A stretch of DNA of 64,000 nucleotides from Owenia fusiformis (Eukaryota > Annelida > Polychaeta > Sabellida > Oweniidae), in assembly GCA_903813345.2 (NCBI GenBank), contig CAIIXF020000011.1, positions 12,374,842 through 12,438,841 of the forward strand, given 5' to 3'. The position numbers and the translations under genes are program-made. Of the stretch, positions 31,829 through 62,476 are shown in pieces; position 1 is the first letter of the stretch; the number at the start of each line of letters is the position of its first letter. The notes under the pieces are model-generated. The model was given only the letters and a program-made list of their open reading frames with translations, made no database searches and was not told the DNA's origin.

Positions 31829-32098
31829 ATATCATGCAGTACAGTGAAAATGCGTGAAATTCTTGACGAAGTGGGCTGTTGCATTGTCGGACAGACAGAG
31901 ACACTTGTACCGGCCGATAGAATCCTGTACGCCATCCGAGATGTAACAGGAACTGTCGAGAGCGTACCCCTGATATCCTCATCCATTGTGTCAAAGAAGG
32001 TGGCGGAGACTTTATCAGCACTCGTTCTGGATGTTAAGTGTGGAAAGGCGGCTTATATGAAGACAGAGAAACAAGCAAGAGATCTTGCTGAAAGTATG
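31829..32098 (+). CDS. TYMP: TYMP copy 1 exon (glycosidic-site exon)
   Basis: 270 nt, acceptor TGATTATTGCAG, donor AGTATG/GTAAGA, phase 0 at both ends. It reads [12 protein letters not shown], then [39 protein letters not shown] and ALVLDVKCG. About 76 percent identical in nucleotides to 60292-60561 by my count (64 differences). Confidence 0.92.
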
Positions 32099-35000
32099 GT
32101 AAGAGAGGAAACATGACTCGTGGCTATCTTGGACCAAGGGGGAGGGGGTCAGTTTTAAGAAGAATTCCGGGGGGGGGGGCACTTTGACTTTGGCCCAAAA
32201 TCACATGAGAAATGCTCAGAACCATGAAACACTGGATGATTTTGAAATAATTTTTGGCCGGGTTTAAAAGCGAAAATATGTTATCAACTTTGTATTGGGT
32301 GACATGTAAATATCGCTTAAACCTGGAATAAACGACAATTATCAAAAATGCATGTTTACATATTTCTGTTTTTACAAGAATGATTCATACCAATCAAATA
32401 TTCTTTTTTATCAATGCACGCCGATAAAAAGATGGGCAGAATGGTAGTATTCTTTCTATTCAATTCACCAATGAGAAGCTCAAGAAGGATTGGAAGCCAG
32501 GGTTCCAACTCGATATTCTTTAATCTTCAATCGATGCTGTAATTTCTGATCCTGCCTGTATCACTGGTGATCGCTCGATTACGCTGGTTTCGGTAACAAA
32601 ATGTCGGAACGTCGAAGGTACGCTTTTTCCCTTATTTCACGCGTTGTAGGCAGAGTCCCAACGACGTTTTTTCTCACAAACGTGTATCAGTATCATATGT
32701 TTTAGAAAATGTACGTTTGCGAAAAAATAGCTCAGCAGACAACAGTATCGTCGATTTAATTCCTCACTTAAGTTACATAAACGGTTTGGGTTAAAAGTGC
32801 AGATCTTAATTGTTTTTCGAAATACCGTTTATGTAACTTAAGTGAGGAATTTAATCGACGATTCTGTTGTCTTCTGAACTATTTGTTCGCAAATATGTAC
32901 ATTTTCGTAAACATATAATGAAACCTTTTATGGTTTTATTGTTTTATTGTTTATGGGTTTTGAATTATTAATTGCTGAAGTGCTATTACTTTTTTGTGGA
33001 ATTGTCCTTCAGTTCAGCTGTTGGTGTTTACTAATTATAATGTTCGGTGTTCAAAAACCAAACTCCATCACATCAAGTGTAACATAACAAGTCAGTTATT
33101 CAGTTCAATCCAAGTATATTGTATAAGAATATTTCTTCCTTTTTAAATCACTAAGTACAAGTTTATTCAATAGTCTGCTTCAGTTACTTGGCTTCAATCT
33201 CTATTCATAGAACCAACTCTTTTTACAGCATCAATACTTTGCACAGAACCTGGAACCTGGGCCGAGAGATCTTCAGACTTCAGACCTCTCGACCCAGTCT
33301 CAGACTCCCACAGAACTGTCCTTCAGAACCCACTCACAGAGCTAAAACATCTGTATTTATATCATATTCTAGGCTGTGCTAAATATAGCCCCAGCTTCAA
33401 GTTTAACCAATGAAGGCATTAGGGTTTGGAGCCAAGTTAAAGATACAGACTTACATCAAAGTTACATACAAGATTATATAGCATGCTACATGCAATAACA
33501 CAAGTAATATATCATAATTCCTCAAAGGGTAACATATAATACTGATACACGTTTGTAATAAAGTGTCATGTGAATTCTGACTACAACGTGTGAAATGAGG
33601 AAAAAAGAGAAATCGTACCTTCGATGTTCCGACATTTTGTTTACCGTTTCGGTAACCAGCGTAATCGAGTGGATCACCAGGGGGTCGTTTCCAAAAATGT
33701 CGTTGACTTACGATATCGTAACTCCACGACAGTCGTAGGAATGGGGAAAGTTACGACAAAATTACGACTGTCGTAGACTTACGACAGATCCGTTTCCATA
33801 AAAATCGTAAGTCTGTCGTACAAATTCGCAACTCACGACAAGTTCCACGATAAGTGATTCGAACGTCACGTGACATTCTTATTTAAAATTTTAGTTGTAT
33901 AATATGGTGTTCTAGTCCTGTAGTGTTGTATTTATTGAAAGTTATTGATTTGTTTAAAAATGAAATCACAGGCCCGGGATCATAGGCCCGTCTCCGAGGG
34001 CCCGTCTTAGTAAACGGTCAACATTAATAATTTTTACATCAAATAACGCAAGAAGGAAGACAGCTTTGGTACAGTTCCATGATCATCATGATCATACACC
34101 AGGAATTCTATGACTAAGAAATAATTATGAACCAAATTAACTTAACTTATTCTGAATGAACAAAATCAACTTAAAAGCCCCATATAAAGTTTAAACCACT
34201 TTGGCTTACATCTTACCCAATGTTATCAAAGTGTGAAACGTTTTTTTTAATTCAAAAAGTGGTTTTTGAAGGACTTTTTGTTAAAAATAGTGAATTTATT
34301 TAAGACTAACTTTGAGAGGTCACACGTACATGTATCTTTTAATAAGCGATAATTTATACCAATACTTAGTATTCATCCTCACATGTTTTTTTGCCAAAAT
34401 CTTTTTAAAGGAATATTGAACTATGGCAATGCAATTATCGTTAAGTTTCTGGAATTAAATGCCAAAAAGACCTTGACATATTCATTAAACCCACATGTAC
34501 ATACTCTTGTTTATGTTACAACCAACACAAATATATCGGGTGTTCCAAAAATGAGACATTTTTTGACAAATATTTCCTCCGCAATAAGATTACTCGAATT
34601 CATGAGAAATTTCTCTCCAGTAGCCCAAATAATATCCTTATTTAGTGGTACAAATATGGACGAGATTGGTTACATATTATGTGAGTAATTTGACAAGTTC
34701 AAAATGCGTGTCAAAAATCCAATATAAGTGCTGCGCAATGAGACCGGTACCTTCATAGCGTTTGTGCCAGCTATCAAGTGATGGCATCCCGAGATGGCAT
34801 CCTGACACTGGCATCAGTTTTTGTCTCAAAAAAGGTTGTCTCTGGGTCAGGTATATTGATTTGTTTCATTGTTAACTGTATCCAAATTCCGTTCTGTCCA
34901 AAGTTTTAGTTTGGAAGGATTAACGTTAACGATGTCTTTCAGTGAAAGCGATACGGCTACTATTGAAAATTGTTTCGACAAGGTGAAAGGATGGAGTGGA

Positions 35001-38000
35001 AGATGAATCCCAGAATCGTAAAGGAATTAAGGGAAAGAGTTGGAGTCATGTCACTGTAAATAGACTACATCCAACATGCATTAAAGGACGGCATAAGTAT
35101 GTCATGGGAAACGATATCATTGGGAGAAACACACAAAAGCATTTTTGATTGGAAAAATTTCTTCTTTCAGACTCCGTTGATATTGGATATTTTTGCATGC
35201 TGTTTCTAATTTGACAACACTCCTCATATTCATAGCACTAGCTAATGATACCACCCCATGCAGACAGATCGCCTAAAACTACATTCGTATGATGCGAGAC
35301 TCGACTTTCACCGGGAAATTAGAAACATTTTGCCACCCTTAAAGAAACTTATTTTTACTGCTTAATAAATGGTGAATGACAGTCAAATTGCGTTCTACGA
35401 GTATAAGTATGAGAATAGCACGACGTATTGATATTTCAAGGTAACTCGTTTGAATAATGATGGCGGTGATTGAAATTACGATGTAAAGATAAAACCGCAA
35501 CGGAATATTTGTAGATTTCATTAAAAAACTAAGAAATATACATCACATATCGAATTTTTCAAAGAAAAAAACATGTATAGATAGTTAGGCCTGCAGGTTC
35601 GATTCCCCCTGGTACATTGGTCTCGGGTATGTCATTCAGTTAATATTTGAAACACAACTATTATTCGAACTTATGATCAGACATAAGTATGATGTGTACT
35701 TCGAGGTTATAAAGTAATACTAGTATCATACTGATGTTCGATCAAAAGTTCGAATTACAGTAATGTTGTGTTTCAAATATTAATTGTCATGTTTTTTTCT
35801 GACGTGTCGCAAAAAGCTCGCGCACGCATTGTTACACATTTTGTGGCGTAATCCAGAGGATCCTCGCTTTTAACATGATAGAATGTGACGTTTTTGAGAA
35901 AAATGTACACACATGAAAATCCTTTCGTCCTCCACATTTACCTCTATATCTCAAAACATTTTAGACGAATAACTCTGATATCATATATATTGTTAATGAG
36001 CTAGGAGCATCATAAAACACGAATCAATTGATATTTTAGGTGAAATATATACGTGTTGCTGTGCTTGAAAATAGGCGAATGGCGTAAATTAGCCCTATTT
36101 TAATGAATTTTGAAAACCTTTCGTCCTCCACTTTTCCACATACAACAGAAAACACATACTTTTGTGAACAAAATCAACTATTTATTAATAAACTAGAGTT
36201 TAGGAGCAAAATAATCATGTATGATTTATTAAAAATTGATCTCGTATTTTTTGTTTAATGTACACCTGAAAAGTTGAAGGTCGCTGTCAACAGATTCTAT
36301 TTTTCAGACTCTATGACGTCACAATATGGGACGCTTGCTAAAATTCATCCTTTGAAATAAAACTTCCATCTTCCTTTATCAAGACGAAAATTAAGTATAA
36401 TAGTCATATATTGTTTGAGTTATGAGCGTTTAAAGACGAAAAATAATTCAAAATGTAACGTGTCAACATGGGATATTTGCCAGATGTTTTGGTAAAAAAC
36501 TCTTTCTTAAAAACGAACGCGCAAAAAATGTGAACGGAGTGTAGTTGATCTAAAATCTTCATCGAAACAGCTTTAAAATGATATATAACTTTAATTAGAA
36601 TATTATCTTATAATCCGGGGAATCAAAGTTACATTCACGCGATACCCTTAAAAAACAAATGCGCCACCTTTTTGCGACACGTCTCTGTTTCGGAAAATTC
36701 GGTATGTGACGTATGTTTTTTAGTTCTTCAAAGAAATCTACAAATGTTTCGTTGCGGTTTTATCTTTACATCGTTTTTTCAATCACCGCCATCACTTTTC
36801 AAACGACGTTACCTTGAAATATCAAGACATCATGCTATTCTCATACTTATAAAACGCAATTTGGCTGTCATTCATCATTTATTAAGCAGTAAAAAATTAA
36901 TTTTCTCCTTGGGTGACAAATTATTTCAAGTTTCCTGGTGAATGTCGAGTCTCACATCATACGAATGTAACTTTAGTCGATTTGTCTGCATGGGGTGGAT
37001 ACCCTATACTTCCTCAGTAATTTTTTTAAAGAATTTAACTTGTCTATTGCTGAGAAAATACTTGTCAATAGTGTCTGAGACTAATATGTCAGAAAAATAA
37101 ATGTTTACTTCTTTGAATCAAACACTGCCAAATTTTATTATTTGATTGCACGTATTTCACAATTGTAGCCATTTGTGTCCTATGATGGAAATATTGTTCT
37201 TGATATTCAATTCACTCATTTTATCACCAAGTTTTCACAGTAAATATTATTTATTTATATTGTGAGTGATATTTTTACTTGCTGTCTTTAGTCTAATTAC
37301 AGCATAAAAAAGTAAGAACTTTTTAGTATGAGTTTCCTAGCGTTCAGAACTTAAATGCATCACGTGCATTGAATCACTGGACTAGGCAATATTCAAAATT
37401 CTCTGATTTATATAATAAATTAGGAATCATTTTGATAATGTATTCCAATCAGATAGTTTATACTCGGAAAGTATGCTTATGTATAATTGAATTCCTTTTG
37501 CTAGATCAGTCGTATTTCAGGCATAAAACGCGAAGTGAAAACCTCTTATCACCCATCTCAAAATAGATCTTTTCTGTATTCTCAGTCTTTTTTACTCAAG
37601 ATTAAGTATACATCTCACATATTTCCATCTTTACATATATCTCAAATATCTTAGATATTCAAAAAACGAAATACTGCAAAAAATAACTAAAAATTTGGGG
37701 GGTTCGCATAATTGCTGGAAAGGGTGGGTTCGAATTTTTTAAGGCAAGATTTGGGGTGGGTTCGCACGAACCCTCCGAACCCCCTCTCCCTACGGCCCTG
37801 TGACTCACTTTTTGGGACACCAGGAGTGTGTTGACTGACGTCCGCACATAACCGATTAACTTATGTCAAAGTTTGAACACCCTGACAACGGTAAAGTTAG
37901 ATACCTGTATTACAAATGGCAGTAGGTTCGTATTCGATTCAATTTTCATCATAGGTCTATTGAAAGGGAAAGCCCATGATATCCTTAAACTAGATTTAAT

Positions 38001-41000: not shown

Positions 41001-44000
41001 TGCGATGCCGATAATGTCTTTAAAGCCTGACATGATAACTTACTGCAAATCTATCATAACTATCCAAACGATTTGATCACTTCTTGTGAGTTTTGAATTT
41101 TTGTTTGTTTGAAGATAAGACCAAAACTTGCGAAAATGGCTATCGTCGAATTCAATTTTTGTAATCACGACATCTCCATAGGGTGGTTCATAAAATAAGG
41201 TGCACTTTGATCTCATTTGAAAACTATACATTCAATCAATGTTAAATTTTCAGAGTTGATTATTTATGGATGTGGCAACATTTCTATGAGGTCTGATTAC
41301 AATAGCTTCTTGTTTGGTAAAATTATGGTTGCTATGGCAACCAAAATTAGGGTACCACGGGTCAGGTTGGATTTTTCATACATGCAGATTATTCGCATGT
41401 ATCGTTTAATGCTTCAAAGTATATACAACTTTATTTATAATATGCAAATATGATGACAGTTATTTCTAGTTGTGTTTTCAATGTTTCTAAAGTATCTGCT
41501 ATGTGCTATCACGATGTCATATGGTGCTTTGTGTATGGAATATCATTTTGATAGACAGACGCCAAATTAGCCACCTGGCCCAGAAAATCAGCCATTTGGC
41601 TCAAAATGGAAGGCCAACAAAAAAGAAGACAAAGATGATTGACCCACCCTCTTTATCTAAAACATATTTCTATCGCATTTTCAAGGTGTCATCAAGCTGT
41701 GGTGTGGGTGTAGAGACGGTTGCTATATTAACTCGAATGGACAACCCAATCGGCAATTACGTGGGACACTCTCTTGAAATCATAGATGCCATTGAAACAA
41801 TGCAAGGAAACGGACCTTCAGATCTCGTGGAGCTCGTGTGCACTCTAGGTATATTCAATTCTTCATTGTATTTAGGTTTATGTATTGTACAGGGTGGACC
41901 CAAGAAACCAATACCCAAGTTTAAAGAAGAATATCATATGATATATGTTGAACCATCCCATATATTATATATCATCTTAAAGATAAATCATTTCCTATTA
42001 TATTATTTAGCCCACCTGTATATACAGGGTGGGCCAAAACGCCACTTTTTCGTGACACTACAACTTTTTTATATTCCAACCTACATACCCCAAATGTTGC
42101 TGTTATACAGTATAGTGCCAGGGGTTCTTAGTAATAATATAATGCAACACGTCGTTCAACTTGGATTATATTTAATCTAAAACAGGAGTTCAGTGACGTG
42201 GCGCATTTGTTTTTTAAGGGTATCGCCTGAATGTAACTTTGATTCCCCGGATTATAAGATAATATTCTAAGTTATATATCATTTTAAAGCTGTTTCGATG
42301 GCGTTTTTAGATCAACTACACTCCGTTTACGATTCTTGCGCGTTCAAAATAGTTTTTTACCAAAACATCTGGCAAATATCCCCTGTTGACACGTTCCATT
42401 TTTAATTATTTTTTATTTAAACGCTCATAACTCAAACAATATATGACTATTATACTTATTTTTCGTCTTGATAAAGGTAGATGGAAGTTTTATTTCAAAG
42501 GATGAATTTTAGTAAGCGTCCCATATTGTGACGTCATAGAGTTTGAAAAATAGAATCTGTCGACAGCGACCTTTTTTGCTCATTTTTTGTTACCTTCAAC
42601 TTTTCAGGTGTACATTAAACAAAAAATACGAGATAAATTATTAATAAATCACACATGATTATTTTGCTCTTAAACTTTAGTTTATTAATAGATAGTTGAT
42701 TTTGTTTGCAAAAGTATGTGTTTTCTGTTGTATGTGGAAAAGTGGAGGACGAAAGGTTTTCAAAATTCATTAAAATAGGGCTAATTTACGCCATTCGCCT
42801 ATTTTCAAGCACAGTAACACGTATATTTATTTCACCTAAAATATCAATTGATTCGTGATTTATGATGCTCCTATCCCATTGTTAATACATATACAATATC
42901 AGAGTTATTCGCCTTAAATATTTGGAGATATAGATGCAAATGTGGAGGACGAAAGGATTTCCATATTTGTACTTTTTGCGACACGTCAGTTGAGTTGGTC
43001 CGCCACCCTATTTGATGATATATTTCCGTTTTAGTCGCCTTGCTGATATAGCAGTATCAATGAAATGTTAGCTAAGTTTTTTCAACAGGTCTTAATTGCC
43101 AGCTTTAGTTGAGCAATTTTCTAAATTGGGTGCCTTCATACAATCTCTTGAAGACCTTGTCATACCCTATACTCACTGCATCAGGGCTATTAGCTTGGCG
43201 ATCATAAGGCCGTATCTGTTCAGGAACATTTTGCAAATTTTGCTTATTTCTCATGGCACACCACATGTTTAAGTAAGACACTGGTGACATATTTTATTCA
43301 AGTAAAAGTGTATAATTCATGATCCATGGGTAGATCACAACCTCAAATTTCATTTGGTATGCAAATTATGATTTTGTATCAAAAATTAAAAAAAAGTTAT
43401 AGCATTTTGAAAAAAGTGGCGTTTTTTGGCCCACTCTGTATATATATTGGAATAGTGAGTGTTGGATTGTAAATAAGCTTCGATACGCATATCACGCATT
43501 TAATTTAATTAAGAAATTCATGGCTGTATAGAAGATGTAATATTGGACTCTCAGGTATGGTTCAATGTTCTCGTGGAGACTGTTTCATGTGTTAAAAAGT
43601 TAGATCTTGTATACGAGATAGAATTCTTTGGGTAAACTATATTTTGCCAGAAATCTTATTCCATATATGAATTCCTTGTAGGCGGACATCTTTTAAAAAA
43701 TGCTGGGAAGGTTTCAACACCAATGAAAGGATATCAACTTATTGAAGAAACCATCGCCAATGGTTCGGCCCTGGAGAAATTCCGCCTAATGATGCAAGCT
43801 CAGGAGGTCGATGAGACAACCGCTAATTCTTTATGCAAGAAAGATGTTGACTTTTTCAGTATCTTCAGACCGTCCAAGCTAAAAACCGATGTAAAAGCAG
43901 ACAGCGAAGGTAGTCCCATGATATACAAAAATGATTTCTCTAAAATAATTACAATAAATCAATATTAAGAATCTGAGGTCATTGGAAGACACTGCCACAA

Positions 44001-45561
44001 TTACGATATGGTGGTTTAAGTTGTGTAACGGATAACAGCTTAAATTCCTATTATTTTTATGAACAGTTCCTTAGACGTGTCGTAAAAAGGTGGCGCATTT
44101 GTTTTTTAAGGGTATCGCGTGAATGTAACTTTGATTCCCCGGATTATCAGATAATATTCTAATTAAAGTTATATATCATTTTAAAGCTGTTTCGATGAAG
44201 ATTTTAGATCAACTACACTCCGTTCACATTTTTTGCGCGTTCGTTTTTAAAAAAGAGTTTTTTACCAAAACATCTGGCAAATATCCCATGTTGACACGTT
44301 ACATTTTGAATTATTTTTCGTCTTTAAACGCTCATAACTCAAACAATATATGACTATTATACTTATTTTTCGTCTTGATAAAGGTGGACGGAAGTTTTAT
44401 TTCAAAGGATGAATTTTAGTAAGCGTCCCATATTGTGACGTCATAGAGTCTGAAAAATAGAATCTGTTGACAGCGACCTTTTTTGCTCATTTTTTGGTAC
44501 CTTCAACTTTTCAGGTGGACATAAAACAAAAAATACGAGATCAATTTTTAATAAATCATACATGATTATTTTGCTCCTAAACTCTAGTTTATTAATAAAT
44601 AGTTGATTTTGTTCACAAAAGTATGTGTTTTGTGTTGTATGTGGAAAAGTGGAGGACGAAAGGTTTTCAAAATTCATTAAAATAGGGCTAATTTACGCCA
44701 TTCGCCTATTTTCAAGCACAGCAACACGTATATTTATTTCACCTAAAATATCAATTGATTCGTGTTTTATGATGCTCCTAACCCATTGTTAATACATATA
44801 CAATATCAGATTTATTCGCCTTAAATATTTTGAGATATAGAGGCAAATGTGGAGGACGAAAGGATTTCCATAAGTGCTCATTTTTCTCAAAAACGTCACA
44901 TTCTATCATGTTAAAAGCGAGGATCCTCTGGATTACGCCACAAAATGTGTAACAATGCGTGCGCGAGCTTTTTGCGACACGTCTTAACAATTATATAACG
45001 TATGTGGTTGGAATGATCCGTTGCACTCCACCATTGATTTTCCCTCGTATGTATTATGCACTTTTTCAGGATATATTAGTTCAGTTGATGCGTTTGCTTT
45101 AGCAAATGTGATCAACTCTCTTGGCGCCGGACGTGCAAAGGCGGGGGACCAAATCAACCACAGTGTTGGGCTCCATTTGAGAAAACACATTGGGGAACGC
45201 GTAGAGAAAGGTGTGTCAATGATGATTATTATCTAAAAAAAGAGAAATCAAAACATCATTAGAGGTGTATCGCAAACCATTGAACCCCAGTTTTTTCCAG
45301 CGTTTATTAAAATATTTCGTGATTGTTTTGTTTCTAAAATATGATAATAATTTTTCAGGTGAAGTTTGGTTGACAGTTCATCACGAGTCTCCTCTTAGTG
45401 GCGACCATTTGAAAACAATTAGAAATACTCTTGAGCTGCAAGACAAAGAGCTGCCTGCCGGTTGTGCAAGTCGTATAATTGATATCATTACTAATGAGAC
45501 TATCCAAGGCAAAAGAGACACACCCAGGGCTAATGATATGCAGAACGGTTCCTGTGATTAA
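31829..45561 (+). CDS. TYMP: Thymidine phosphorylase copy 1, lacking 5' exons (partial or pseudogene)
   Basis: Exons 31829-32098, 41686-41848, 43682-43909, 45070-45210 and 45359-45561 join in frame to 334 codons plus TAA. They match the middle and C-terminal parts of thymidine phosphorylase (pyrimidine-nucleoside phosphorylase family: thymidine + phosphate to thymine + deoxyribose-1-phosphate). The substrate-site residues R (YAIRDVT), S and K (SSSIVSKK) are present. The exons that in copy 2 carry KHxTGGVGDK and SGRG are not seen in the 8.8 kb upstream, and no start codon exon was found, so the phosphate site is missing. The 9.6 kb first intron is filled with transposons. AATAAA lies 80 bp past the stop. 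Either a truncated duplicate or one using an unseen 5' end. Confidence 0.85.
32125..32265. repeat. Dispersed repeat, copy b
   Basis: Lies just past the first TYMP copy 1 exon. It starts at a G-rich run (32171-32180) and shares GGCCCAAAATCACATGAGAA, ATGATTTTGAAATAATTTTT and GGCC words with 29360-29530. Confidence 0.65.
32567..33680. mobile_element. 1.1-kb element with about 65-bp inverted ends
   Basis: Left end CTGGTGATC, CTCGATTACGCTGG, AAAATGTCGGAACGTCGAAG matches the reverse complement of 33610-33680 with a few gaps. Inside, 32690-32785 and 32825-32915 form a second nested hairpin. No transposase seen; the 64-codon ORF at 33188 lacks any motif. Non-autonomous, family unassigned. Confidence 0.7.
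32690..32915. repeat. Long near-perfect hairpin
   Basis: The core arms 32749-32785 and 32825-32862 are complementary without visible mismatch (CGTCGATTTAATTCC, CTTAAGTTACATAAACGGT), with a 39-bp loop. Weaker pairing extends outward through GTACGTTTGCGAA and TTCGCAAATATGTAC. RNA from it would fold into a stem of about 90 bp. Confidence 0.8.
35639..35786. repeat. Short inverted-repeat hairpin
   Basis: TTAATATTTGAAACACAAC at 35640 pairs with GTTGTGTTTCAAATATTAA at 35764, and ATTCGAACTT pairs with AAGTTCGAAT further in. A compact hairpin of about 145 bp within the foldback element, just left of the 883-bp insertion. Confidence 0.75.
35801..36683 (-). mobile_element. GACGTGTCGC element, copy A
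   Basis: 883 bp bounded by inverted ends GACGTGTCGCAAAAAG and CTTTTTGCGACACGTC. TCT flanks both sides (35798-35800; 36684-36686). The internal sequence matches copies B and C but in reverse orientation. No ORF of transposase size. Non-autonomous; 3-bp target sites differ between copies (TCT, AGT, TTA), so insertion is not restricted to TWA. Confidence 0.88.
37002..38640. other. Intron stretch of TYMP copy 1 with no recognised gene
   Basis: ORFs at 37369-37566 and 37873-38097 show no motif. 37695-37800 is a G/C-rich repeat-like patch (GGGTTCGCA words on one side, CGAACCC on the other). Nothing else seen. Confidence 0.5.
39110..39605. mobile_element. 500-bp MITE, copy 1 (ACACCCC ends)
   Basis: Ends TAACACCCACGTCACATTT and AAATGTGACTGGGGTGTA are inverted. 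The interior is rich in CTACGGC/GCCGTAG words and contains TATAACTCCGAGTTATA. It matches 47583-48084 along its length, about nine bases in ten. The many CG-containing words make it stand out from the AT-rich intron. Confidence 0.88.
41686..41848 (+). CDS. TYMP: TYMP copy 1 exon
   Basis: 163 nt, acceptor TTTTCAAG, donor CTCTAG/GTATAT, phase 0 to 1. Encodes [21 protein letters not shown], then [13 protein letters not shown] and LVCTLG. 13 differences from 60906-61068. Confidence 0.92.
42021..43443. mobile_element. Mariner-like MITE, with copy B nested
   Basis: TATACAGGGTGGGCCAAAAC and GCCACTTTTT at the left mirror AAAAAGTGGC, GTTTTTTGGCCCACTCTGTA at the right, with TATA on the outside as for TA-targeting Tc1/mariner elements. 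Without the nested insertion it is about 630 bp and too short for a transposase. Similar single ends occur at 38652 (GGTGGGCCAAAAAAAATTG) and 41889 (TACAGGGTGGACCCAAG). Confidence 0.65.
42195..42987 (+). mobile_element. GACGTGTCGC element, copy B (left end deleted)
   Basis: 793 bp; about a dozen bases are missing from the left terminal repeat (GACGTG runs straight into GCGCATTTG), while the right end is CTTTTTGCGACACGTC. AGT flanks both sides (42192-42194; 42988-42990). It sits inside the mariner-like element 42021-43443. Confidence 0.85.
43682..43909 (+). CDS. TYMP: TYMP copy 1 exon
   Basis: 228 nt, acceptor CTTGTAG, donor GCGAAG/GTAGTC, phase 1 to 1. Encodes [10 protein letters not shown] through [12 protein letters not shown]. 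Only 8 differences from 61180-61407, five of them in the last 12 bases. Confidence 0.92.
44074..44983 (+). mobile_element. GACGTGTCGC element, copy C
   Basis: 910 bp with inverted ends GACGTGTCGTAAAAAG and CTTTTTGCGACACGTC. TTA flanks both sides (44071-44073; 44984-44986). Longest copy. It lies in the intron between TYMP copy 1 exons 43682-43909 and 45070-45210, only about 85 bp from the latter. Confidence 0.9.
45070..45210 (+). CDS. TYMP: TYMP copy 1 exon
   Basis: 141 nt, acceptor CTTTTTCAG, donor GAGAAAG/GTGTGT. Encodes [20 protein letters not shown], then [15 protein letters not shown]. The GAGR..AGD..N..VGL pattern is typical of the C-terminal domain. 16 differences from 61678-61818. Confidence 0.92.
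45359..45561 (+). CDS. TYMP: TYMP copy 1 last exon
   Basis: 203 nt, acceptor ATTTTTCAG, ending at TAA 45559-45561. Encodes [20 protein letters not shown] through [13 protein letters not shown] and a unique C-terminal tail not shared with copy 2. About 82 percent identical to copy 2 over the shared part. Confidence 0.9.
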
Positions 45562-45640
45562 CAATATAGTAACCTACATGTACATTACACGTAATCGCAG
45601 ACCTTAAAACAGGAATCATCCGTGATTTCTAACGTAAAGT

Positions 45641-45646
45641 AATAAA
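45641..45646 (+). promoter_or_regulatory. Polyadenylation signal of TYMP copy 1
   Basis: AATAAA 80 bp after the TAA stop, in a position typical for a short 3' untranslated region. No clear downstream GT-rich element checked. Confidence 0.5.
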
Positions 45647-45818
45647 AGCATCTTGCGATAAAAAGGCTGCTGTTTGATAACATCACTCTATTTTGATTAT
45701 ATGAGGGTCCATAATTACAATCTCTTCATTGTACGTGTGTGCATCATAAATAAAACTACTTGTGTAGGAAATGGAAATCCATTTTTTATGTCCCGACCAC
45801 ATATTGAGGGGCCATATT

Positions 45819-45849
45819 GTCTGTCTGTCTGTCCGTCCGTCTGTCCGTC
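45819..45849. repeat. (GTCT/GTCC)n microsatellite
   Basis: GTCTGTCTGTCTGTCCGTCC continued by GTCTGTCCGTC, just after TTGAGGGGCCATATT. Short tetranucleotide repeat 3' of TYMP copy 1. Confidence 0.85.
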
Positions 45850-47539: not shown

Positions 47540-47582
47540 GCAAAATCCATCTTGCCTTGTGTCGATCTATGAGATCAGGGTA

Positions 47583-48084: not shown

Positions 48085-48379
48085 AAAGTGCATGTACTCA
48101 AGCATCGTATCGGTCTGCATTCTTATTTACATCAGGTCAGGCAGCCAACAAATAATTAATGTCGTAAAATAAAACAAGATAACTTGAAAAATAAGACTCA
48201 GTATCCAAACCAATAAGAGCAACAACACCAAAAAGATAAGCTGAAGTAAAACCAAATATAAGCGTATCAATATGCAAAGATACTAGAAACTAAGCACTGA
48301 AAAAGAAGGACAATAAGGAAGAAAATTTGCTCATATTCTTGTTGACAAATCTGCATTGCTGAGCTCTAGATCTGATACA

Positions 48380-48503
48380 ATGTCTGCACGCACTCCTGCA
48401 GATCTTATTGCTAAAGTACGAGACAAGATCCCATTAACTCAAGATGAAGTTGAGGGATTTGTGGATGCTGTAACAAAAAATGAAATTGAACAAGCACAGA
48501 TTG
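48380..48503 (+). CDS. TYMP: TYMP copy 2 exon 1
   Basis: 124 nt from ATG to donor CAGATTG/GTAAGT. Encodes [20 protein letters not shown], then [20 protein letters not shown], matching the N-terminal helices and the AQIGA.LMA motif completed by exon 2 at 59351. It lies 2.8 kb after the end of copy 1. Confidence 0.9.
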
Positions 48504-51500: not shown

Positions 51501-54500
51501 TATATTTTTGACCATATAGAAATTTCTGTACAGCAGGCAATCTAGGAAAATAATTTTTCTGGGCCACATAGAAATATCTACACAGCGTTTCAATTTTTAT
51601 TTTTCTAATCTATCCTTTTAGAAATTTCTATACCAGCAAACATAATTTAAATATGCACCCATATATATAGAAATTTCTATGAAGCGTTTCAATTTTTATT
51701 TTTGACTTTATCAATATAGAAATTTCTATACGAGGAGAAATGTTTTACCAGTAACATAATTATTATTTTCCGACGGCCTTCACATAGAAATTTCTATACC
51801 GATAACCAATTAAAATGACAAAAATTGATATTTCCAGAGTTATCTGCATAGAAATTTCTATACGGAAAGACAATGGAATATTTTGTATAGAAATTTCTAT
51901 CTGAGAATAGTTTATTTGTAAGTCTAGTTAGAAGCTACATAGAAAATTCTATACGATAAGAAGAAACACAATTTTACTAGACATTAACATGAATATGTAT
52001 TGATAAAATGATTTTACCTTTATCTGGTTTGATGAAATATTCATATACTTTGTATAAATATTGTAAATCTAATATGATAATAAAACATTGACGGTTGAAA
52101 TTTATGAAATTCACTGCTGTTTTTACGTTTTTGGGTTTTCAAAAAGGGACTAAACGGTTCATTCTCTTTTTAAATGGTCACGACTTATATGTGTTGGATG
52201 AACATTGTGTCAATGATACATCACACTGATATTTTACATTTTCTTATGCTGTATTTTAAACTTGACTCTATAACTTATATTTTTGCATTTGTCTTGTTGT
52301 TTACATTATGTATTTTGTAGTTAGTTTAGTCTAAGTTATTTTTGTATATTGTACATTGTACTGACTAATATGTCATTGTGATGACATCTGAGTCAATAAA
52401 AGATGTTCATGAACGCTGCTCCTGCCAAGTGGACACTTTATCATTAGGGTCTGGTACGTTATCGCGCTCCTCGGTCAAGCCAAGTAACTTAGTCAACATT
52501 CGATATTTGTATGTTCATCAATATTTACTAAGAATGGTGCCACAATTGAAGTAAACCTCCGGTTAATTATTTTCAATAAACCTATCAGCAAACGTGTAAA
52601 TGATAATTTTGATGTTCTGTTACATATTGGTGAAGCAATCTTGGGGAAATGGCCTAAATTTCTGATTTTCCACTGTGTCCCTGTACACCCCTACTTCAAA
52701 AGATGTATGTTATTTGTCGTTTTTCATTATGATATGGAGCAAACAAATACGTGTCAATATACACTGTAATATCCTACATACTTATATTTCAATGGTAGTT
52801 TTGAAGAATAATCAAGAAAATCCATGTTTCCAAATGGATTCATTCTTGTCAAAGAACGTAAATGAGGATACGCGGTTTGAAGAACTGACAACATGTTTCA
52901 AGTTCTTACAATTCTTGGTTAAAACATATATTTTTTCATTCTTAATGCACATTGCTGGATCACAGAACCTTGCCTTGTTCGCGATGCACGAAAAGTGTAT
53001 TGTTAATTCTTGACGTCGTTCGGATATTTGGATGTGATTGACGTTTTCGTTAATCTCCTACCACTGTAACTTCCAACTTAATTTTTGAAAGCCAAATATG
53101 ATAGTCACGAATTGATATTTAAGTCACAGGTTGATGCATACATCATGCGTGTACATTAACTGTCGAATACATGCCGACTAACAGTTTATATAAATATCCA
53201 CAGTTAACTGATATCATCAATTCTCGAAACAGTTTATCACATAACCTGGTGAGTTTAATGATACATTTTAATTCATAATTATGGTATCGGATTTGAGTAT
53301 GATATTAGTCGAGACTTAAACAAAGCAATAAAACTTAATGAAACTTTTTGTGAAAATTCGAACGATTTTTCAAGAATCCCACTTCAAAGTGTTAAAAAAG
53401 TGCTCCCCGGGAGTGAAAATTTCGTCTTGTGTAATCAAAATAATAGCGGGTGGTTTGAATTTTTGTTTGAGTTTAGAGCTTACATCTATATATAAATTTA
53501 AAAACATATCGCCTCATTGAGAGGTACATCATTATAAAAGGCTAAACATTGTGCAAAAACAGGAGTTGACACGCTTACATTTGGAAATGAAATTTCCTAC
53601 ATAATTGCCGATTCATGTTAAAAAGTCATGAAAACAAGGTTGAACACAAAGCATTGACCCAGTTACTGTCTATTTGGCATGGGATCACTAAGGGAAATAT
53701 TATTAATGACTTAAATCGTCAACAGTTAAGTTGTATTCCAAGGAACTTATTAATTTAGAAATGCAAAATGTTCAATTTTGTTTTTCAATTATACAAAATC
53801 GCACCTGTAGAGAAGAACGTTCACAAAATTATTTAAAACGGAGATATTTACTTATGTAACATTCATTGGCATGTGTCAGGGAGTAAATAAGAAGAATATG
53901 CATTTGATTCTATATCTTGTTCCCAAAGGAGTTTGTTAAGGAGCGGTATATCTTAACGTACTTTTATCATCCCGAACTCAAACATTTCGAATACTTATTT
54001 TAAGAACGCTTTGTTAAGAATGGATTCGAGATGTACCCAAAATTAATACGTTAAAATGTGTATTATCATCTTGATAACTACCTCATAAATTATTTTGGAA
54101 ATCAAAGATGTACGATTTTTGAGATTTTTATTTTCGAATGTTGACTTAGTTACTTGGCTTGACTGTCCTGCCAATTGGACCCTGTATCATTAGGGTCTGG
54201 TACGCGATCCCCGCTCCTACCAAGTGGACCTTGTATCATTAGGGTCTGGTACGCGAATTCCGCACCTGCCAAGTGGACCCTGTATCTGGTTCACGATCGC
54301 CGCACCTGCCAAGTGGACCCTGTATCATTAGGGTCTGGTACACGATCGCCGCTCCTGCCAAGTGGACCCTGTATCATTAGGCTCTAGTACGCGAACGCCG
54401 CTTCTGCCAAGTGGACCCTGTATCATTAGGGTCTGGTACACGATCGCCGCTTCTGCCAAGTGGACCCTGTATCATTAGGGTCTGGTACGCGAATTTCGCC

Positions 54501-57500
54501 CTGCGAAGTGGACCCTGTATCATTAGGGTCTGGTACACGATCGCCGCTCCTGCCAAGTGAACCCTGTATCATTAGGGTCTGGTACGCGAATTCCGCACCT
54601 ACCAAGTGGACCCTGTATCATAAGGGTCTGGTACACGATCGCCGCTCCTGCCAAGTGGACCCTGTATCATTAGGGTCTGGTACACGATCGCCGCTCCTGC
54701 CAAGTGGACCCTGTATCATTAGGGTCTGGTATGCGTCCTCAGTGGGTTGGTCAGGGTTAGGTAATCATTTAAAACCCCATCTGGTTTAATAGGGATGGGG
54801 TTGGTAATTAGGGTTAGGGTTAAGGTTACGGTTAACTCATTTCACTTTGCAGGAGCGGCGTTCATGTGCCAGACCCTTCTTATAGCGATCGCTGCTCCTG
54901 CCAAGTAGACCCTGTATCATTAGGGTCTGGTATGCAAACGCCGCTCCTGCCAAGTGGACCCTGTATCATTAGGGTCTGGTACGCAAACGCCGCTCCTGCC
55001 AAGTGGATCTTGTATCATTAGGGTCTGGTACGCAAACGCTGCTCCTGCCAAGTGGACCCTGTATTATTAGGGTCTGGTACACGATTGCCGCTCCTGCCAA
55101 TTTGACTCTGTATCATTAGGGTCTAGTATGCGTCCTGTGTCCTCAGTTGGTAGGTCAGGGTTAGGTAATCATTTAAAACCCCATCTGGTTTGATAGGGTT
55201 GGGGTTGGTAATTAGGGTTAGGGTTAAGGTTAGAATTACATTTTTTTTATCTATTGACACAGAAGTTTATTGTATTTATGTAAATCATTTTTTTATTTAT
55301 TTTATATTTTTGACACACATATTCATGATCTTAGGGTTACGTTACAGTTAAGGTTAGGGTTAAATTCATTTTTGGGTTAGTGTCAAATTCATTTTTTGGA
55401 TTTTTTTTACTCCCAAGTTTATTGTATTTATGGAATTCATTTCTTTATTTTTTTGACACACATATTCATGGTCTTTTTGGGATGTTTTGACACAGTTTCG
55501 TGGTCTTGATGGAATTCATCTTTTTAATTTTTTGATTGTTTTGATATTGCACAAGTTCGGGATATACCTCGTTGAGAAAACATGCAGTCTTCACTATTTT
55601 CCTTATTTTAAAGTCCCCATGTTAAGTTTGAAAATATATTTTTATCATTCATTTACTATTTGTCGTGACTTTAAAAGTTATTTTAGAGATTTTTTGAAAA
55701 AAGTTGTAAGCTTTTCTTTTCTCACTTCAATGTTTTAGCATATCAATAATATTTTGCAACCTAAGTCAGATCTGCCAACCTGAAATTGGTTTTGAACGAG
55801 GTCATGGTGATTTATACTTGATTCTGTGATATGAAGAATAGGTTTTAATTAAATGAAGAATATGACAAAAATTAATGAGTAATAAGGCTGATTATTTGAC
55901 AAGTTGGCCCTGAACAAGTATTATGAGGGTTCCTTTGCTCGCTCAGTTTTTACAGAAAAATACCTATATTTCCTTAAAAGAAAGAAGTCCAATAATCAAG
56001 GTTACAAACTTGTCAAATTTACTGTAGATTTAGCTCAAACACGGTAGATTAAGGGAGATTTCAGTCAAAAATACGGGAGGTTGTTACGGCCATTGTCACG
56101 GGAAAAAATGGATTAAAAAAATTAAGGTACATTTTAGTAGAAGTACGGTGCGGGAGTTAACAGTAGTTTTACGGGTTAAAACGGGATAGGAGCTTTGTTA
56201 TATTTTCTCGCCTATTTTTGAACCAATTTTCTTAATTTTTCCCCAAAATCATGTTTGGATGAATGCTAGCTATGCATTGGTGTGAATTATCGCTTATTAG
56301 AATGTACATGCATATGTTGCTAACTGTAATATCTAAATATACAGATTTTCAATTCTACATGAATACAGTTATATTCTTATTTCTACTTATTCAAGAATTC
56401 AAGATGGTTTTGAGCAGGGAGCCTTCATAATGAACTAATTGACACTCAGATTGGAACATTAGTACAAGGATACTATTATGTTCACATGTGTTTAGAATTG
56501 TGTTAGAATTGTATATGATACAGTGATATGCTGTCCATAGCTTTGTAACATTAACAAGTTTATTACTTCACAATTATTCCATAATAAAATCATCTCTACA
56601 TAATAAATTATTCTCTGCAATCTATTTTTGTTTTATGAGAACATAGTAAGTAATCTATTATTATCATATTGAAAAATTTTACATGTTTTAAGTCGCAGTG
56701 AATTCTAAGAAATAATGCAAAGGCAAAGTCAGATCCCTCATGGAATTCTTTAAAAACAGCCCCCCCGCTTCCCCTCCCTGGCAAAAGCTGACTACTGGCC
56801 TGAGAGTGGCAGAATACTAATGTAGCCAGTGTAGTTAGTGTAGTTAGTGGTCAGCTAACCTAGAATATTGTAGAGGATGATTTCTTCATATGCTTACTAC
56901 AAAGCTCAAATTTACATGTATATATTGTTTATTGTTTCTTTTATTCCCGAAAATTAATCGGAGCAACAAACATAATAATTACAATACAGTTACTTTATAC
57001 AATAGAGATGTATAGTTTAAACTTTGCAAGATGCTACTCGAACATGCAACATGGCAGCATGTCACTTGCTAACTTGTTCCACATGTTGCACATGTGAGAT
57101 GTATAGTTTAAACTTGGCAAGATGCTATTCGAACATGCAACATGGTAGCATGTCACTTGCTAACTTCGTCCACATGCTGCACGTGCGAGTTGTATAGTTT
57201 AAACTTGGCAAGATGCTATTCGAACATGCAACATGGCAGCATGTCACTTGCTAACTTGGTCCACATGCTGCACATGTGAGATGTATAGTTGAAACTTGGC
57301 AAGATGCTACTCGGACATGCAACATGGCAGCATGTCACTTGCTAACTTGGTCCACATGTTGCACATGCAAGTTGTATCGTTTAAACTTGGCAAGATGCTA
57401 TTCGAACATGCAACATGGTAGCATGTCACTTGCTAACTTGGTCCACATGCTGCACATGTGAGTTGTATAGTTTAAACTTGGCAATATGCTATCTGTACAT

Positions 57501-60500
57501 GCAACATGGTACCATGTCACTTGGCAACTTGGTCCACATGCTGCACATGCGAGTTGTATAGTTTAAACCTGGCAAGATGCTATCTGTACATGCAACATGG
57601 TACCATGTCACTTGGCAACTTGGTCCACATGCTGCACATGCGAGTTGTATAGTTTAAACTTGGCAAGATGCTATTTGAACATGCAACATGGTAGCATGTC
57701 ACTTGCTAACTTGGTCCACATGCTGCACATGCGAGTTGTATAGTTTAAACTTGGCAAGATGCTATTTGAACATGCAACATGGTAGCATGTCACTTGCTAA
57801 CTTGGTCCACATGCTGCACATGCGAGTTGTATAGTTTAAACTTGGCAAGATGCTATCTGTACATGCAACATGGTACCATGTCACTTGGCAACTTGGTCCA
57901 CATGCTGCACATGCAAGTTGTATAGTTTAAACCTGGCAAGATGCTATCTGTACATGCAACATGGTACCATGTCACTTGCTAACTTGGTCCACATGCTGCA
58001 CATGCGACTTGTATAGTTTAAACTTGGCAAGATGCTATCTGTACATGCAACATGGTACCATGTCACTTGGCAACTTGGTCCACATGCTGCACATGCAAGT
58101 TGTATAGTTTAAACCTGGTAAGATGCTATCTGTACATGCAACATGGTACCATGTCACTTGCTAACTTGGTCCACATGCTGCACATGCGACTTGTATAGTT
58201 TAAACTTGGCAAGATGCTATCTGTACATGCAACATGATACCATGTCACTTGGCAACTTGGTCCACATGCTGCACATGCAAGTTGTATAGTTTAAACCTGG
58301 CAAGATGCTATCTGTACATGCAACATGGTACCATGTCACTTGCTAACTTGGTCCACATGCTGCACATGCGACTTGTATAGTTTAAACTTGGCAAGATGCT
58401 ATCTGTACATGCAACATGGTACCATGTCACTTGGCAACTTGGTCCACATGCTGCACATGCAAGTTGTATAGTTTAAACCTGGCAAGATGCTATCTGTACA
58501 TGCAACATGGTACCATGTCACTTGGCAACTTGGGTCCACATGCTGCACATGCGACTTGTATAGTTTAAACTTGGCAAGATGCTATCTGTACATGCAACAT
58601 GGTACCATGTCACTTGCTAACTTGGTCCACATGCTGCACATGCGACTTGTATAGTTTAAACTTGGCAAGATGCTATTTGAACATGCAACATGGTACCATG
58701 TCACTTGCTAACTTGGTCCACATGCTGCACATGCGAGGTTTATCATTGAGACTTTGAAAAATTTAAATATGGGACATGGCAGCATGTGACTTGTAACTTG
58801 GTCCACATGCTGGGCAACGTGTATACTTCGTACTTGGCAAGATGCTAATTGTACTTGGTGCACATGGCATGTAGTACCCCGGTGGCCTTAGCTGAAATGT
58901 TTTGCCCGGACATCCTAGGAAGTGTATTCTAGCTCTCCCTTTTTGGAAGGGGGATACCTGGGATCTCAATGTGTCCTTTTTCATAAAAACTATGGTAAAC
59001 ACGTACATTTTATAAATTAGGGAAAGCTGGGTACATTTCATAGAGGACTGGGTCAACATAATAATTATGTATATACACGTTTTTTATACCACCATATTCA
59101 ATTGGAATCCAGTAAGTCAGCACAGAATAGACATCTATGAATCAGAATAGATAATCATTAAAATAATACACTTGATCTTGAAGATTTATCCCGGAAAGTT
59201 GAAATCATATGGAATCATTTTATGGACCGATATACTGAAATTCCAGATGGGATTGGTGTTGGGAGACGATATCATACTTACTACATTGGAAAACTCCTGA
59301 CACCCTTCATAATGTTTTTCAATATTCTTTTCGCATTTTACTGTTCTTAGGTGCTCTGTTAATGGCTATACGACTAAACGGACTAAGCACAGAGGAAACC
59401 ATTGGTCTGACCCGGGCTATGATGCGGTCGGGCGAGGTTCTACAATGGCCTGAAGAGTGGACCCGAGATAAGCTGGTGGTGGATAAGCATTGCACCGGGG
59501 GAGTAGGGGATAAAGTCAGCATTGTTCTCGCTCCTGCTCTTGCAGCATGTGGCATGAAGGCAAGTATCAGTACAAATATTACTCCTTTGCAAGAAGAAAC
59601 ACCTTTCCAATAAATCCCGAGCCCTACTGGTATACCAAGGAAACAATAGGCTAGATTACTGACGAAAGAAAACAATTGTAAGAAGTAAATCCAAATTCTG
59701 ACCTGAAACTGTAAAATTGACATCTTAACCATTAGATGGCATGATTTATTACCTCCCTCATAAAATAAGGTAGCTCTGAAAATGTCTTGTTGATGACATA
59801 CAGTTAAGCTCTGTCAATCTGAGCAAGAGTAATATCAGCTCAAATGTTTGTCCCGCCTTTATTCGTGATTTTTGATGATATTAGGATTTTAAGTTTAAAG
59901 CTTATTTTTTAGGTTCCGATGATATCTGGCAGGGGGTTGGCGTACACGCATGGGACTTTAGACAAACTGGAAGCTATACCAGGATTCCAAGTTGGTTATT
60001 CGATTTAAATGATCATGACGTGATTATACGTTATTTGTCCAGACAAATTAAGATTAAGCCAGTATAGTACATCTTTGTAGAGTTCATTTAGAAATAAAAA
60101 CGTCTGAAAATGTATTTCTGTAAACGTTTAGCGAGAGGCACTTGTCTCATTAGCCTCTCGCCTGGCTACACCCATGTACATCTAATACAATTTAGTAGAA
60201 GCCCATCAGAGGTGTACATTCGGATATGAAACTTAAACTTCTCTCCCAAAGTTAAACTTATGATCACTCTTTTACGATGTTCACATTTCAGATCTCGTGC
60301 AGTGCAGAGAAAATGCGCCAGGTTCTTGAAGAGGTTGGATGTTGCATCGTTGGTCAAACAAAAACACTCGTGCCGGCTGATAAAGTCCTCTACGTCATAC
60401 GAGATGTGACGGGAACGATCGACAGTCTGCCGCTCATAACCTCATCTATTGTATCCAAGAAGACGGCAGAGAGTTTATCAGCGCTTGTGTTGGACGTGAA

Positions 60501-62149
60501 GTGTGGCAAAGGGACCTTTATGAAGACCGAACAAGAGGCGAGAGGTCTTGCTAAAAGTATGGTAAGAATTATACAAGATAAAGAAATATAAAATGACATT
60601 TCTCACAACCCAATAACAAGCAAACGATCAGTGTTTATTATTGTATACCTTAGCATATTGCAAGATCCCTTGCAATTTGTCGTTCAATTTCAAAAATGAT
60701 TATTCGTTAATTATTACAACTGAGAACTCTTCAAATGATTTCGAATGAAAATATAGTGAAAAGACTATATTCACTAAAATGTTCTTGAATATTGCTTAAA
60801 ATCTTTGCAATCAAACCGGTAACTAGCTAGCTTATTCATCCATTGCATACGCATTAGTTTTCATGTGACATCGATGTTTTTATGTTAAATGCAGAACGTT
60901 TCCAGGTGTCAGCAAGCTGTGGCGTTGGCGTAGAGACGGTTGCTATAATGACTCGTATGGACAACCCAATCGGCAATTACGTGGGACACTCTCTTGAGAT
61001 CATAGACGCAATTGAAACAATGCAAGGAAACGGACCTTCAGATCTGTTGGAGCTCGTGTGCACTTTAGGTATACGGAATGCTTCAAAGATATATTATAAG
61101 GGGTTTGAAATTACTCTGTTCTGTCACCGTCTTATATCATGATTTAAGGACGACCTTTTAAGTGTTTCGTATTTTCTAGGTGGACATCTTTTAAAAAATG
61201 CTGGGAAGGTTTCAACACCAATGAAAGGCTATCAACTTATTGAAGAAACCATCGCCAATGGTTCGGCCCTGGAGAAATTCCGCCTAATGATGCAAGCTCA
61301 GGGGGTCGATGAGACAACCGCTAATTCTTTATGCAAGAAAGATGTTGACTTTTTCAGTATCTTCAGACCGTCCAAGCTAAAAACCGATGTAAAAGTACAC
61401 ACTGGAGGTAGTCTGTCTAAATAAAATATCTCATATCACAATGTTTTCTATAAATTAAGAGTAAGCTAGTTGAAGTAAGTACAGTTTTCATTTGCGAGAG
61501 AAGAGCATCTGACTCCAACCCGTTCTTCATTTCAAAAAATAAATTGTCTGCGTTAGGGTTATTCATGAGATGATTTAACGAGGTGCTATTAATGCTTGGG
61601 TTTGGGTAATGTGATAACTCACTATTGTTTTTTAATGAATGTCTAGTAGAACGTACATTTTAATTGTTTCTTTTCAGGATATATCAGTGCAGTTGATGCA
61701 TTAGCTTTATCAAATCTGATCAACTCTCTTGGTGCTGGACGTGCAAAGGCGGGGGACCAAATCAACCTCAGTGTTGGGCTACATTTTCGTAAACACCTTG
61801 GTGAACGCGTGGAGAAAGGTGAGCGAAGAATTATATTTGATATTTGAAATACAAAATGATAAAAGTGATAAAAGTGTCTTATATTCATGTGTGACTTTAT
61901 TTGTCATATTATATCATCTTTAATATGCCCAGATATGTACTTAAAAGACAAACTGTTTCAGGGGATGTTTGGTTAACGGTTCATCACGATTCACCACTTA
62001 GTGACAACCATTTGAAAACAATCAGAAATACGCTCGAGCTGCAAGAACAGGAATTGCCTGCCGGAAGTATAGGTCGCATAATTGAAATCATTACTAATGA
62101 AACTGTTCGATGCAATGGTAACGGATATAGTAGTAGGCAGAATTCGTAA
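48380..62149 (+). CDS. TYMP: Thymidine phosphorylase copy 2, complete eight-exon gene
   Basis: Exons 48380-48503, 59351-59559, 59913-59990, 60292-60561, 60906-61068, 61180-61407, 61678-61818 and 61962-62149 sum to 1401 nt and join in frame to 466 residues plus TAA, close to vertebrate family length. It catalyses reversible phosphorolysis of thymidine and acts in cytosolic pyrimidine salvage and catabolism (family knowledge). Order: N-terminal helical domain, phosphate motif [10 protein letters not shown] (residues about 90-99), signature [16 protein letters not shown], substrate residues R, S and K in YVIRDVT and TSSIVSKK, then [10 protein letters not shown] and the C-terminal [17 protein letters not shown] domain. 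Two oddities: Cys replaces the Ser usual after KH, and His replaces the second-last Gly before GT in the signature. Intron 2 uses a GC donor. Start chosen as the first ATG of the frame (MSARTPADL). Confidence 0.92.
48927..49226. repeat. Interspersed repeat, inverted relative of 1-235
   Basis: Starts GGGGTGGATCTGGGAACCAA, G-run at 48961-48969, then GGGCCCAAATTTTGAGGCC and AAGGCCTTAAAAGGCCCAGT, ending in a second G-run and CCAGATCCGCC. The ends (GGTGGATCTGG and CCAGATCCGCC) are themselves inverted, so this looks like a complete 300-bp MITE-like element, of which 1-235 is a fragment. Confidence 0.72.
49630..50265. repeat. Long imperfect inverted repeat with TTAGTAA words
   Basis: The arms contain CGAGGACATCT, GCATGTGAGG and ATAGTCCCTAATTA at 49822-49866, mirrored at 50208-50257, and TTCTTGCATACTTAATCTAT near 49929 mirrored by ATAGATTAAGTATGCAAGAA near 50190. 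Many AATTAGTAA/TTACTAATT words cluster at both ends. Probably a MITE of about 640 bp. Confidence 0.7.
50729..50976. repeat. MITE-like inverted repeat of about 250 bp
   Basis: TTATATGAAATACTGTGTTT and TGATTGGCT at 50782 mirror AGCCAATCCGAACACAGTAT at 50898, and GGCCTTGG at 50731 mirrors CCAAGGTC near 50970. Central loop about 85 bp. Confidence 0.7.
50977..51405. other. Intron stretch of TYMP copy 2, nothing recognised
   Basis: AT-rich sequence without ORF, inverted ends or tandem repeat. Confidence 0.5.
51410..51960. repeat. Cluster of ATAGAAATTTCTAT palindromes
   Basis: About eleven copies of the self-complementary word ATAGAAATTTCTAT, some with one or two changes, spaced 28-70 bp apart (near 51413, 51473, 51525, 51566, 51618, 51668, 51715, 51783, 51848, 51878, 51938) in otherwise unlike DNA. 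Each copy is a perfect or near-perfect dyad, often flanked by C on the left and AC or CGG on the right. Confidence 0.85.
51961..52410. other. AT-rich stretch resembling a transcript 3' end
   Basis: T-rich sequence ending GAGTCAATAAAAGATG just before the satellite, like a polyadenylation context. No matching ORF upstream, so it may be a fossil retrotransposon tail or chance. Confidence 0.25.
52475..54162. mobile_element. 1.69-kb inverted-end element inserted in the satellite
   Basis: Left end TCAAGCCAAGTAACTTAGTC, AACATTCGA is mirrored by TCGAATGTTGACTTAGTTAC, TTGGCTTGA on the right (about 30 bp, one mismatch). Satellite sequence lies on both outer sides. Inside are ORFs at 52675-53013 (112 codons) and 53338-53520 without recognisable transposase motifs. 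Non-autonomous; family unassigned. Confidence 0.8.
54750..54840. repeat. Telomere-like spacer 1 in the satellite
   Basis: GGTTAGGTAATCATTTAAAA, then GGGGTTGGTAATTAGGGTTA and GGGTTAAGG. Contains TTAGGG words like the metazoan telomere repeat, but degenerate and only a few units. Confidence 0.8.
55155..55235. repeat. Telomere-like spacer 2 in the satellite
   Basis: Second copy of the TTAGGG-containing spacer, nearly identical to 54750-54840, followed to about 55380 by scattered GGTTAGGGTTA words. Confidence 0.8.
55390..57000. other. Intron stretch of TYMP copy 2, no gene recognised
   Basis: Low-complexity T-rich DNA at 55390-55740 with TTTATTGTATTTATG and TTTTTTGACACACATATTCATG words repeated two or three times, then unremarkable AT-rich sequence with no inverted ends found. 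Confidence 0.5.
57005..58745. repeat. 91-bp satellite with emerging 182-bp higher-order form
   Basis: About 19 copies of a 91-bp unit: TGTATAGTTTAAACTTGGCA, AGATGCTATCTGTACATGCA, ACATGGTACCATGTCACTTG, CTAACTTGGTCCACATGCTG, CACATGCGACT. Each holds the dyad ACATGGTACCATGT. From about 57840 two variants alternate (AACTTGG ... GCAAGTTG and AACCTGG ... GCGACTTG), giving a 182-bp period. A decayed tail continues to about 58870. Confidence 0.95.
58871..59350. other. End of TYMP copy 2 intron 1
   Basis: No repeat or ORF of note. It ends in the pyrimidine-rich acceptor CATTTTACTGTTCTTAG. Confidence 0.5.
59351..59559 (+). CDS. TYMP: TYMP copy 2 exon 2 (phosphate-binding exon)
   Basis: 209 nt, acceptor CTGTTCTTAG, donor ATGAAG/GCAAGT (a GC donor). 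Encodes [16 protein letters not shown] through [39 protein letters not shown]. Confidence 0.93.
59913..59990 (+). CDS. TYMP: TYMP copy 2 exon 3 (family signature exon)
   Basis: 78 nt, acceptor CTTATTTTTTAG, donor TTCCAA/GTTGGT, phase 0 at both ends. Encodes [20 protein letters not shown] then AIPGFQ. The donor was chosen because it joins exon 4 in phase 0 and gives the family's usual spacing to the next motif. Confidence 0.88.
60292..60561 (+). CDS. TYMP: TYMP copy 2 exon 4
   Basis: 270 nt, acceptor CACATTTCAG, donor AGTATG/GTAAGA. Encodes [20 protein letters not shown], then [29 protein letters not shown]. Confidence 0.95.
60906..61068 (+). CDS. TYMP: TYMP copy 2 exon 5
   Basis: 163 nt, acceptor GTTTCCAG, donor CTTTAG/GTATAC. 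Encodes [20 protein letters not shown], then [18 protein letters not shown]. Confidence 0.95.
61180..61407 (+). CDS. TYMP: TYMP copy 2 exon 6
   Basis: 228 nt, acceptor TTTTCTAG, donor CTGGAG/GTAGTC. Near-identical to 43682-43909 of copy 1. Confidence 0.95.
61678..61818 (+). CDS. TYMP: TYMP copy 2 exon 7
   Basis: 141 nt, acceptor CTTTTCAG, donor GAGAAAG/GTGAGC. Encodes [20 protein letters not shown] then [17 protein letters not shown]. Confidence 0.95.
61962..62149 (+). CDS. TYMP: TYMP copy 2 exon 8
   Basis: 188 nt, acceptor ACTGTTTCAG, TAA at 62147-62149. Encodes [20 protein letters not shown] through [15 protein letters not shown] and a short tail. No AATAAA close by; the nearest I noticed is near 62931. 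Confidence 0.92.
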
Positions 62150-62230
62150 TTTCAAATTGAACTGAAACAATCAGCATCAAATACAGGAAACACGAATTAC
62201 GAAATGAGGGATCAAGTTTTTCTCACTTTA

Positions 62231-62472: not shown

Positions 62473-62476
62473 TTTA

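Follow-up and report, generated by a model that had tools for sequence, protein, structure and literature searches.

Some 214 bp of exon 6 have very probably been transferred between two neighbouring genes, TYMP A and TYMP B, by DNA-level interlocus gene conversion. The genes lie head-to-tail on the same strand, and the window analysed, a 64,000-nucleotide piece of a 498-Mb eukaryotic assembly, contains most of TYMP A and the whole of TYMP B. A conversion tract at 43682-43909 and 61180-61407 had been proposed in the first-pass annotation from the letters of the sequence; the proposal was supported, and a scan with permutations refined the tract to exon 6 positions 3-216, corresponding to 43684..43897 (+) in A and 61182..61395 (+) in B.

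For both genes, splice-checked models gave a complete set of eight exons, encoding proteins of 471 (A) and 466 (B) residues with no internal stop in either; exons 1-7 are equal in length between the two. Exons 1-3 of TYMP A, modelled from open frame and splice sites, precede the window (-18227..-18104, -15189..-14981 and -13465..-13388 on the window scale, + strand) and are followed by an intron 3 of ~45 kb. Exon 4, likewise placed by open frame and splice sites, occupies 31829..32098 (270 bp), followed by exon 5 at 41686..41848 (163 bp), exon 6 at 43682..43909 (228 bp), exon 7 at 45070..45210 (141 bp), and exon 8, with the stop codon, at 45359..45561, all on the + strand. TYMP B, also on the + strand, starts with exon 1 and its start codon at 48380..48503 and continues with exon 2 at 59351..59559, exon 3 at 59913..59990 (78 bp), exon 4 at 60292..60561, exon 5 at 60906..61068, exon 6 at 61180..61407, exon 7 at 61678..61818, and exon 8, with the stop codon, at 61962..62149. 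Exon 2 of B has a GC donor at its 3′ end, so that intron 2 starts with GC (59560-59561), the counterpart in A being GT. The five exons described in the first-pass annotation are exons 4-8 in this numbering.

Three pyrimidine nucleoside phosphorylase domains (PF02885, PF00591, and PF07831) scored above cut-off, in that order, in both A and B, and the closest solved structure was 2j0f, a thymidine phosphorylase (E 3e-94), which we take to be human TYMP; this match and the spliced genes point to a probable animal source. The maximum-likelihood codon model gave an overall omega of 0.19 between A and B; both genes therefore look maintained, and the pair is best explained as old tandem duplicates, each retained full-length under purifying selection. 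Two loops, the motifs of which were taken from the outgroup rows, showed substitutions. The KHSTGG loop reads KHCTGG in TYMP B, with Cys in place of the Ser found in A and in all four outgroup sequences, and in the GHTGGT loop both A and B read HGT, with His for Gly, where all three prokaryotic sequences read GGT. Judged from sequence, a changed activity is a possible outcome of the Cys in B and the His in A and B (59351-59559 and 59913-59990).

Several repeats were noted in the introns of the pair. Within the long intron 3 of TYMP A, 235-22880 consists of about five tandem units of ~4.6 kb, 95–98% identical, each of which contains 19-bp repeat arrays. A 91-bp satellite unit occurs 19 times at 57005-58737 in intron 1 of TYMP B, and arrays of a 49-bp unit were seen at 54166-54731 and 54890-55128. 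One interspersed repeat of 0.8-0.9 kb is present at 35801-36684, 42198-42977, and 44073-44983, and two of its copies flank exon 6 of TYMP A in the same orientation.

Differences between A and B were counted over the splice-checked exons. Exons 1-3 differed at 23/124, 34/209, and 13/78 positions and exons 4-7 at 64/270, 13/163, 8/228, and 16/141, the latter four reproducing exactly the counts made by eye in the first-pass annotation; its estimate of about 28/153 for the last exon agreed in the 28 differences, which here fall in 149 alignable bases of exon 8. The 3′ tail of exon 8, past the ITNET motif, was dropped from the codon tests because it could not be aligned. In exon 6, the differences sit at positions 2, 50, 124, 217, 219, 223, 224, and 226, which matches the uneven spread reported earlier: three in the first 216 bases and five in the last 12.

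Maximum-likelihood dS values for exons 1-8 were 0.33, 0.62, 0.77, 1.1, 0.27, 0.055, 0.28, and 0.63, respectively (0.35, 0.69, 0.85, 1.43, 0.29, 0.06, 0.29, and 0.68 by the Nei-Gojobori method), exon 4 having the highest value of the eight. The claim of uneven silent divergence along the gene was thus borne out, with exon 6 at 0.055 against 0.27-1.1 elsewhere. Allowing exon 6 its own dS in the codon model raised lnL by 15 (likelihood ratio 30.1, 1 df, p = 4e-8). Further gains in lnL were obtained when exons 5 and 7 together (p = 4e-4), or exon 4 alone (p = 7e-4), formed a separate dS group; because these groupings were made post hoc and the dS of exon 1 is hardly above those of exons 5 and 7, only the result for exon 6 is considered secure.

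Counts of silent changes led to the same exon. There were 364 codons informative for silent change, of which 102 differ between A and B, and the changes were distributed unevenly over the eight exons (chi-square p = 6e-9): 2/68 in exon 6 versus 100/296 in the remaining exons (p = 1e-8). When exon 6 was set against exons 5 and 7 only, the difference was still apparent (p = 0.0023). The longest run free of silent change spans 54 codons, of which 52 belong to exon 6 and two are the first of exon 7, and no run of that length was reached in 100,000 permutations. Sliding silent-site windows, as suggested with the original observation, gave a consistent picture, whereby change-free windows of 40 and of 50 informative codons occurred in none of 20,000 permutations each, and those of 30 codons in 66 of 20,000; windows of 20 codons, at 2258 of 20,000, were unremarkable.

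Over the tract itself, A and B differ at 2 of 214 bases, one difference being silent and the other changing an amino acid. The scan score was 27.4, compared with maxima of 13.4 and 12.7 under two permutation schemes of 5000 replicates each, none of which reached it. The dS of the tract was 0.018, with a 95% range of ~0.001-0.085, the lower end of which lies at the edge of the grid. Third-position differences numbered 1 in the 71 tract codons versus 121 in the 378 codons of the other exons, and 70 of 71 residues are common to A and B within the tract (71 of 76 over exon 6). A 3′ boundary was clearly seen, with 5/12 differences in the last 12 bases of exon 6 versus 2/214 in the tract (p = 3e-6). 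The tract thus ends 2 bp inside the 5′ exon edge and 12 bp short of the 3′ exon end, and this proximity to the exon edges fits a DNA-level conversion whose extent was set by the loss of homology. The segmentation with the lowest BIC (three segments, 1103.7) joined exon 5:52-163 and exon 6:1-216 into one stretch with 9/328 differences; a four-segment model isolating exon 6:3-216 had a BIC of 1110.0.

Alignment of introns 4-7 between A and B was no better than that of shuffled sequence, indicating that the exchange was confined to an isolated exon, and a conversion that carried introns along was rejected for introns 4-7. For introns 1-3, the comparison covered the 100 bases beside each exon, ungapped.

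A third locus that might account for the similarity of the middle exons had been named as an alternative at the outset. The only further TYMP sequence found was copy C, a tandem duplicate of exons 2-8 of B that lies beyond the window. The 8.08-kb unit runs from 59342 to ~67420 in B (+ strand; 59342..64000 in the window) and is repeated at 67425-75501 on the window scale. Exons 2-8 of C are identical to those of B, and a third-locus origin of the pattern was rejected for this reason; two base differences near the junction and one G-run of unequal length set B apart from C in the aligned unit. No exon 1 for C was found in the 134-kb stretch. At the junction, a 10-bp stretch is written twice beside an AG which, from its sequence, could serve as a splice acceptor. 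Copy C is either a fresh copy of B, very young or polymorphic, or an effect of the assembly. Two genome searches gave 15 matches each, all of them in A, B, or C, the queries being without exons 1 and 3 and masked stretches and gaps being possible.

Constraint at the protein level was examined with four outgroup sequences, namely pieces of 2j0f and three prokaryotic relatives (L010, L011, and L012) from a scan of prokaryotes; the per-exon counts of L010 and L011 are almost the same, so that these two are hardly independent. Exon 6 was 27-30% identical to the four outgroups (20-22 of 69-76 residues), the lowest identity among exons 2-7 in seven of eight comparisons of A or B with each outgroup. 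In the eighth, B against L012, exon 7 was marginally lower (14/47, with exon 6 at 21/69). Exon 4 reached 47-60% identity, and exons 1 and 8 were also low or barely alignable. Between A and B, the order was reversed, with 93% protein identity in exon 6 and 76% in exon 4. As exon 6 is poorly conserved against the outgroups yet nearly identical between A and B, protein constraint is not the explanation.

Constraint on silent sites is known in principle, and splicing signals, RNA structure, an overlapping gene, or codon bias might slow silent change in exon 6 with no exchange at all. Several results tell against such a reading, which is very improbable. An overlapping reading frame was rejected, as each of the other five frames is interrupted by 2-6 stops over the tract in A and in B alike; no Rfam family matched at gathering thresholds in 30000-64000; and the GC3 of exon 6 (0.42 and 0.41) is not raised but falls among the values of the remaining exons, the signature of GC-biased conversion being absent. 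Splicing constraint would be expected at the exon edges, yet it is the edges that have diverged (position 2 and five of the last 12 bases), and the low protein conservation of exon 6 against the outgroups likewise tells against constraint. Chance, or ordinary variation in silent rate from exon to exon, could draw on the roughly fourfold spread of dS among the other exons (0.27-1.1), but exon 6 stays an outlier even if this scatter is taken as real (one-sided p = 0.0045; p = 0.0006 for the tract alone); together with the likelihood ratio for its own dS, this leaves chance extremely improbable.

The lowest-BIC segment, continuous in the mRNA but broken by unrelated introns in the DNA, would suit a cDNA- or mRNA-templated conversion, in which exons 5-6 of one gene took on the sequence of a spliced copy of its sister, the introns being retained. 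The spliced junction itself is diverged, however, with 4/26 differences from exon 5:141 to exon 6:2 versus 2/214 in the tract (p = 0.0014, for a stretch picked post hoc), and divergence in exon 5:52-163 (6/112) exceeds that in the exon 6 tract (2/214; p = 0.022). Recombination with cDNA would also be expected to remove introns. In the portion of PMC2614967 considered here, it is named as a model for intron removal. We regard this single event as very unlikely. An extended form, in which exons 5-6, and perhaps 7, have been overwritten repeatedly from the spliced transcripts of the sister gene, as a concerted evolution of exons templated by RNA, is also highly unlikely; if true, it would mean that homogenisation tracks the mRNA regardless of unrelated, repeat-filled introns.

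Under the preferred reading, DNA-level conversion, the introns would have diverged past recognition first and conversion would have come afterwards. A break in one exon 6 may have been repaired from the sister exon ~17.5 kb away, copying then ending where homology stopped, at the 5′ exon edge, or inside the exon, 12 bp short of its 3′ edge. The same compact ~4-kb block of A also contains exons 5 and 7, which may represent earlier conversions that have partly re-diverged; the dS of exon 1, hardly higher than theirs, counts against such older events. Other observations weigh against the preferred reading as given: the extension of the lowest-BIC segmentation into exon 5; the unraised GC3 of exon 6, where GC-biased conversion would predict a rise; and the shortness of the homology island (228 bp), which was presumably already diverged and so unfavourable for recombination.

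Mosaic concerted evolution is described for the mammalian pairs BMP8A/B, DDX19A/B, and TUBG1/2 in the parts of PMC2720389 consulted, and TYMP A/B resembles these as linked duplicates in which some exons are concerted and others diverged. According to the same parts of that paper, the mammalian pairs were chosen because two successive exons, together with their intron, were >97% identical, and they were followed across species, whereas for TYMP a single exon is involved, introns 4-7 are unalignable, and one genome was used. In Capitella teleta, gene conversion of the homeobox is reported for Dlxa/Dlxb in the sections of PMC3199776 drawn on here; as with TYMP, the paralogues are closely linked and otherwise diverged, and the Dlx tract, ~150 bp, has conserved silent sites. 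In those sections, the Dlx tract is located in the gene's most conserved region and extends into an intron, and the genes are tail-to-tail, whereas the TYMP tract falls in an exon that is among the least conserved, and stops at the exon edge, and A and B are head-to-tail. The Caenorhabditis review, in the excerpt of PMC3966223 used, describes exonic tracts between adjacent paralogues, as in TYMP, and states that diverged introns impede conversion; in the same excerpt, introns are included in some conversions, unlike introns 4-7 of TYMP A/B. At 53.5% similarity, intergenic conversion was not seen, as stated in the portion of PMC3142176 at hand.

A search of the open-access literature, with subscription papers outside its scope, found no report of gene conversion between TYMP paralogues. 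TYMP A/B is a new instance of mosaic interlocus gene conversion, a phenomenon that is itself well documented, and is unusual only in the confinement of the exchange to one isolated, weakly conserved exon. The pair thereby offers a clean example of conversion within an isolated exon of ~230 bp without alignable flanks, and since the protein is weakly conserved where the tract lies, selection at the protein level can hardly mimic it. With dS ranging from 0.055 to 1.1 along one pair, a dS taken from a single exon, or averaged, would misdate the TYMP duplication.
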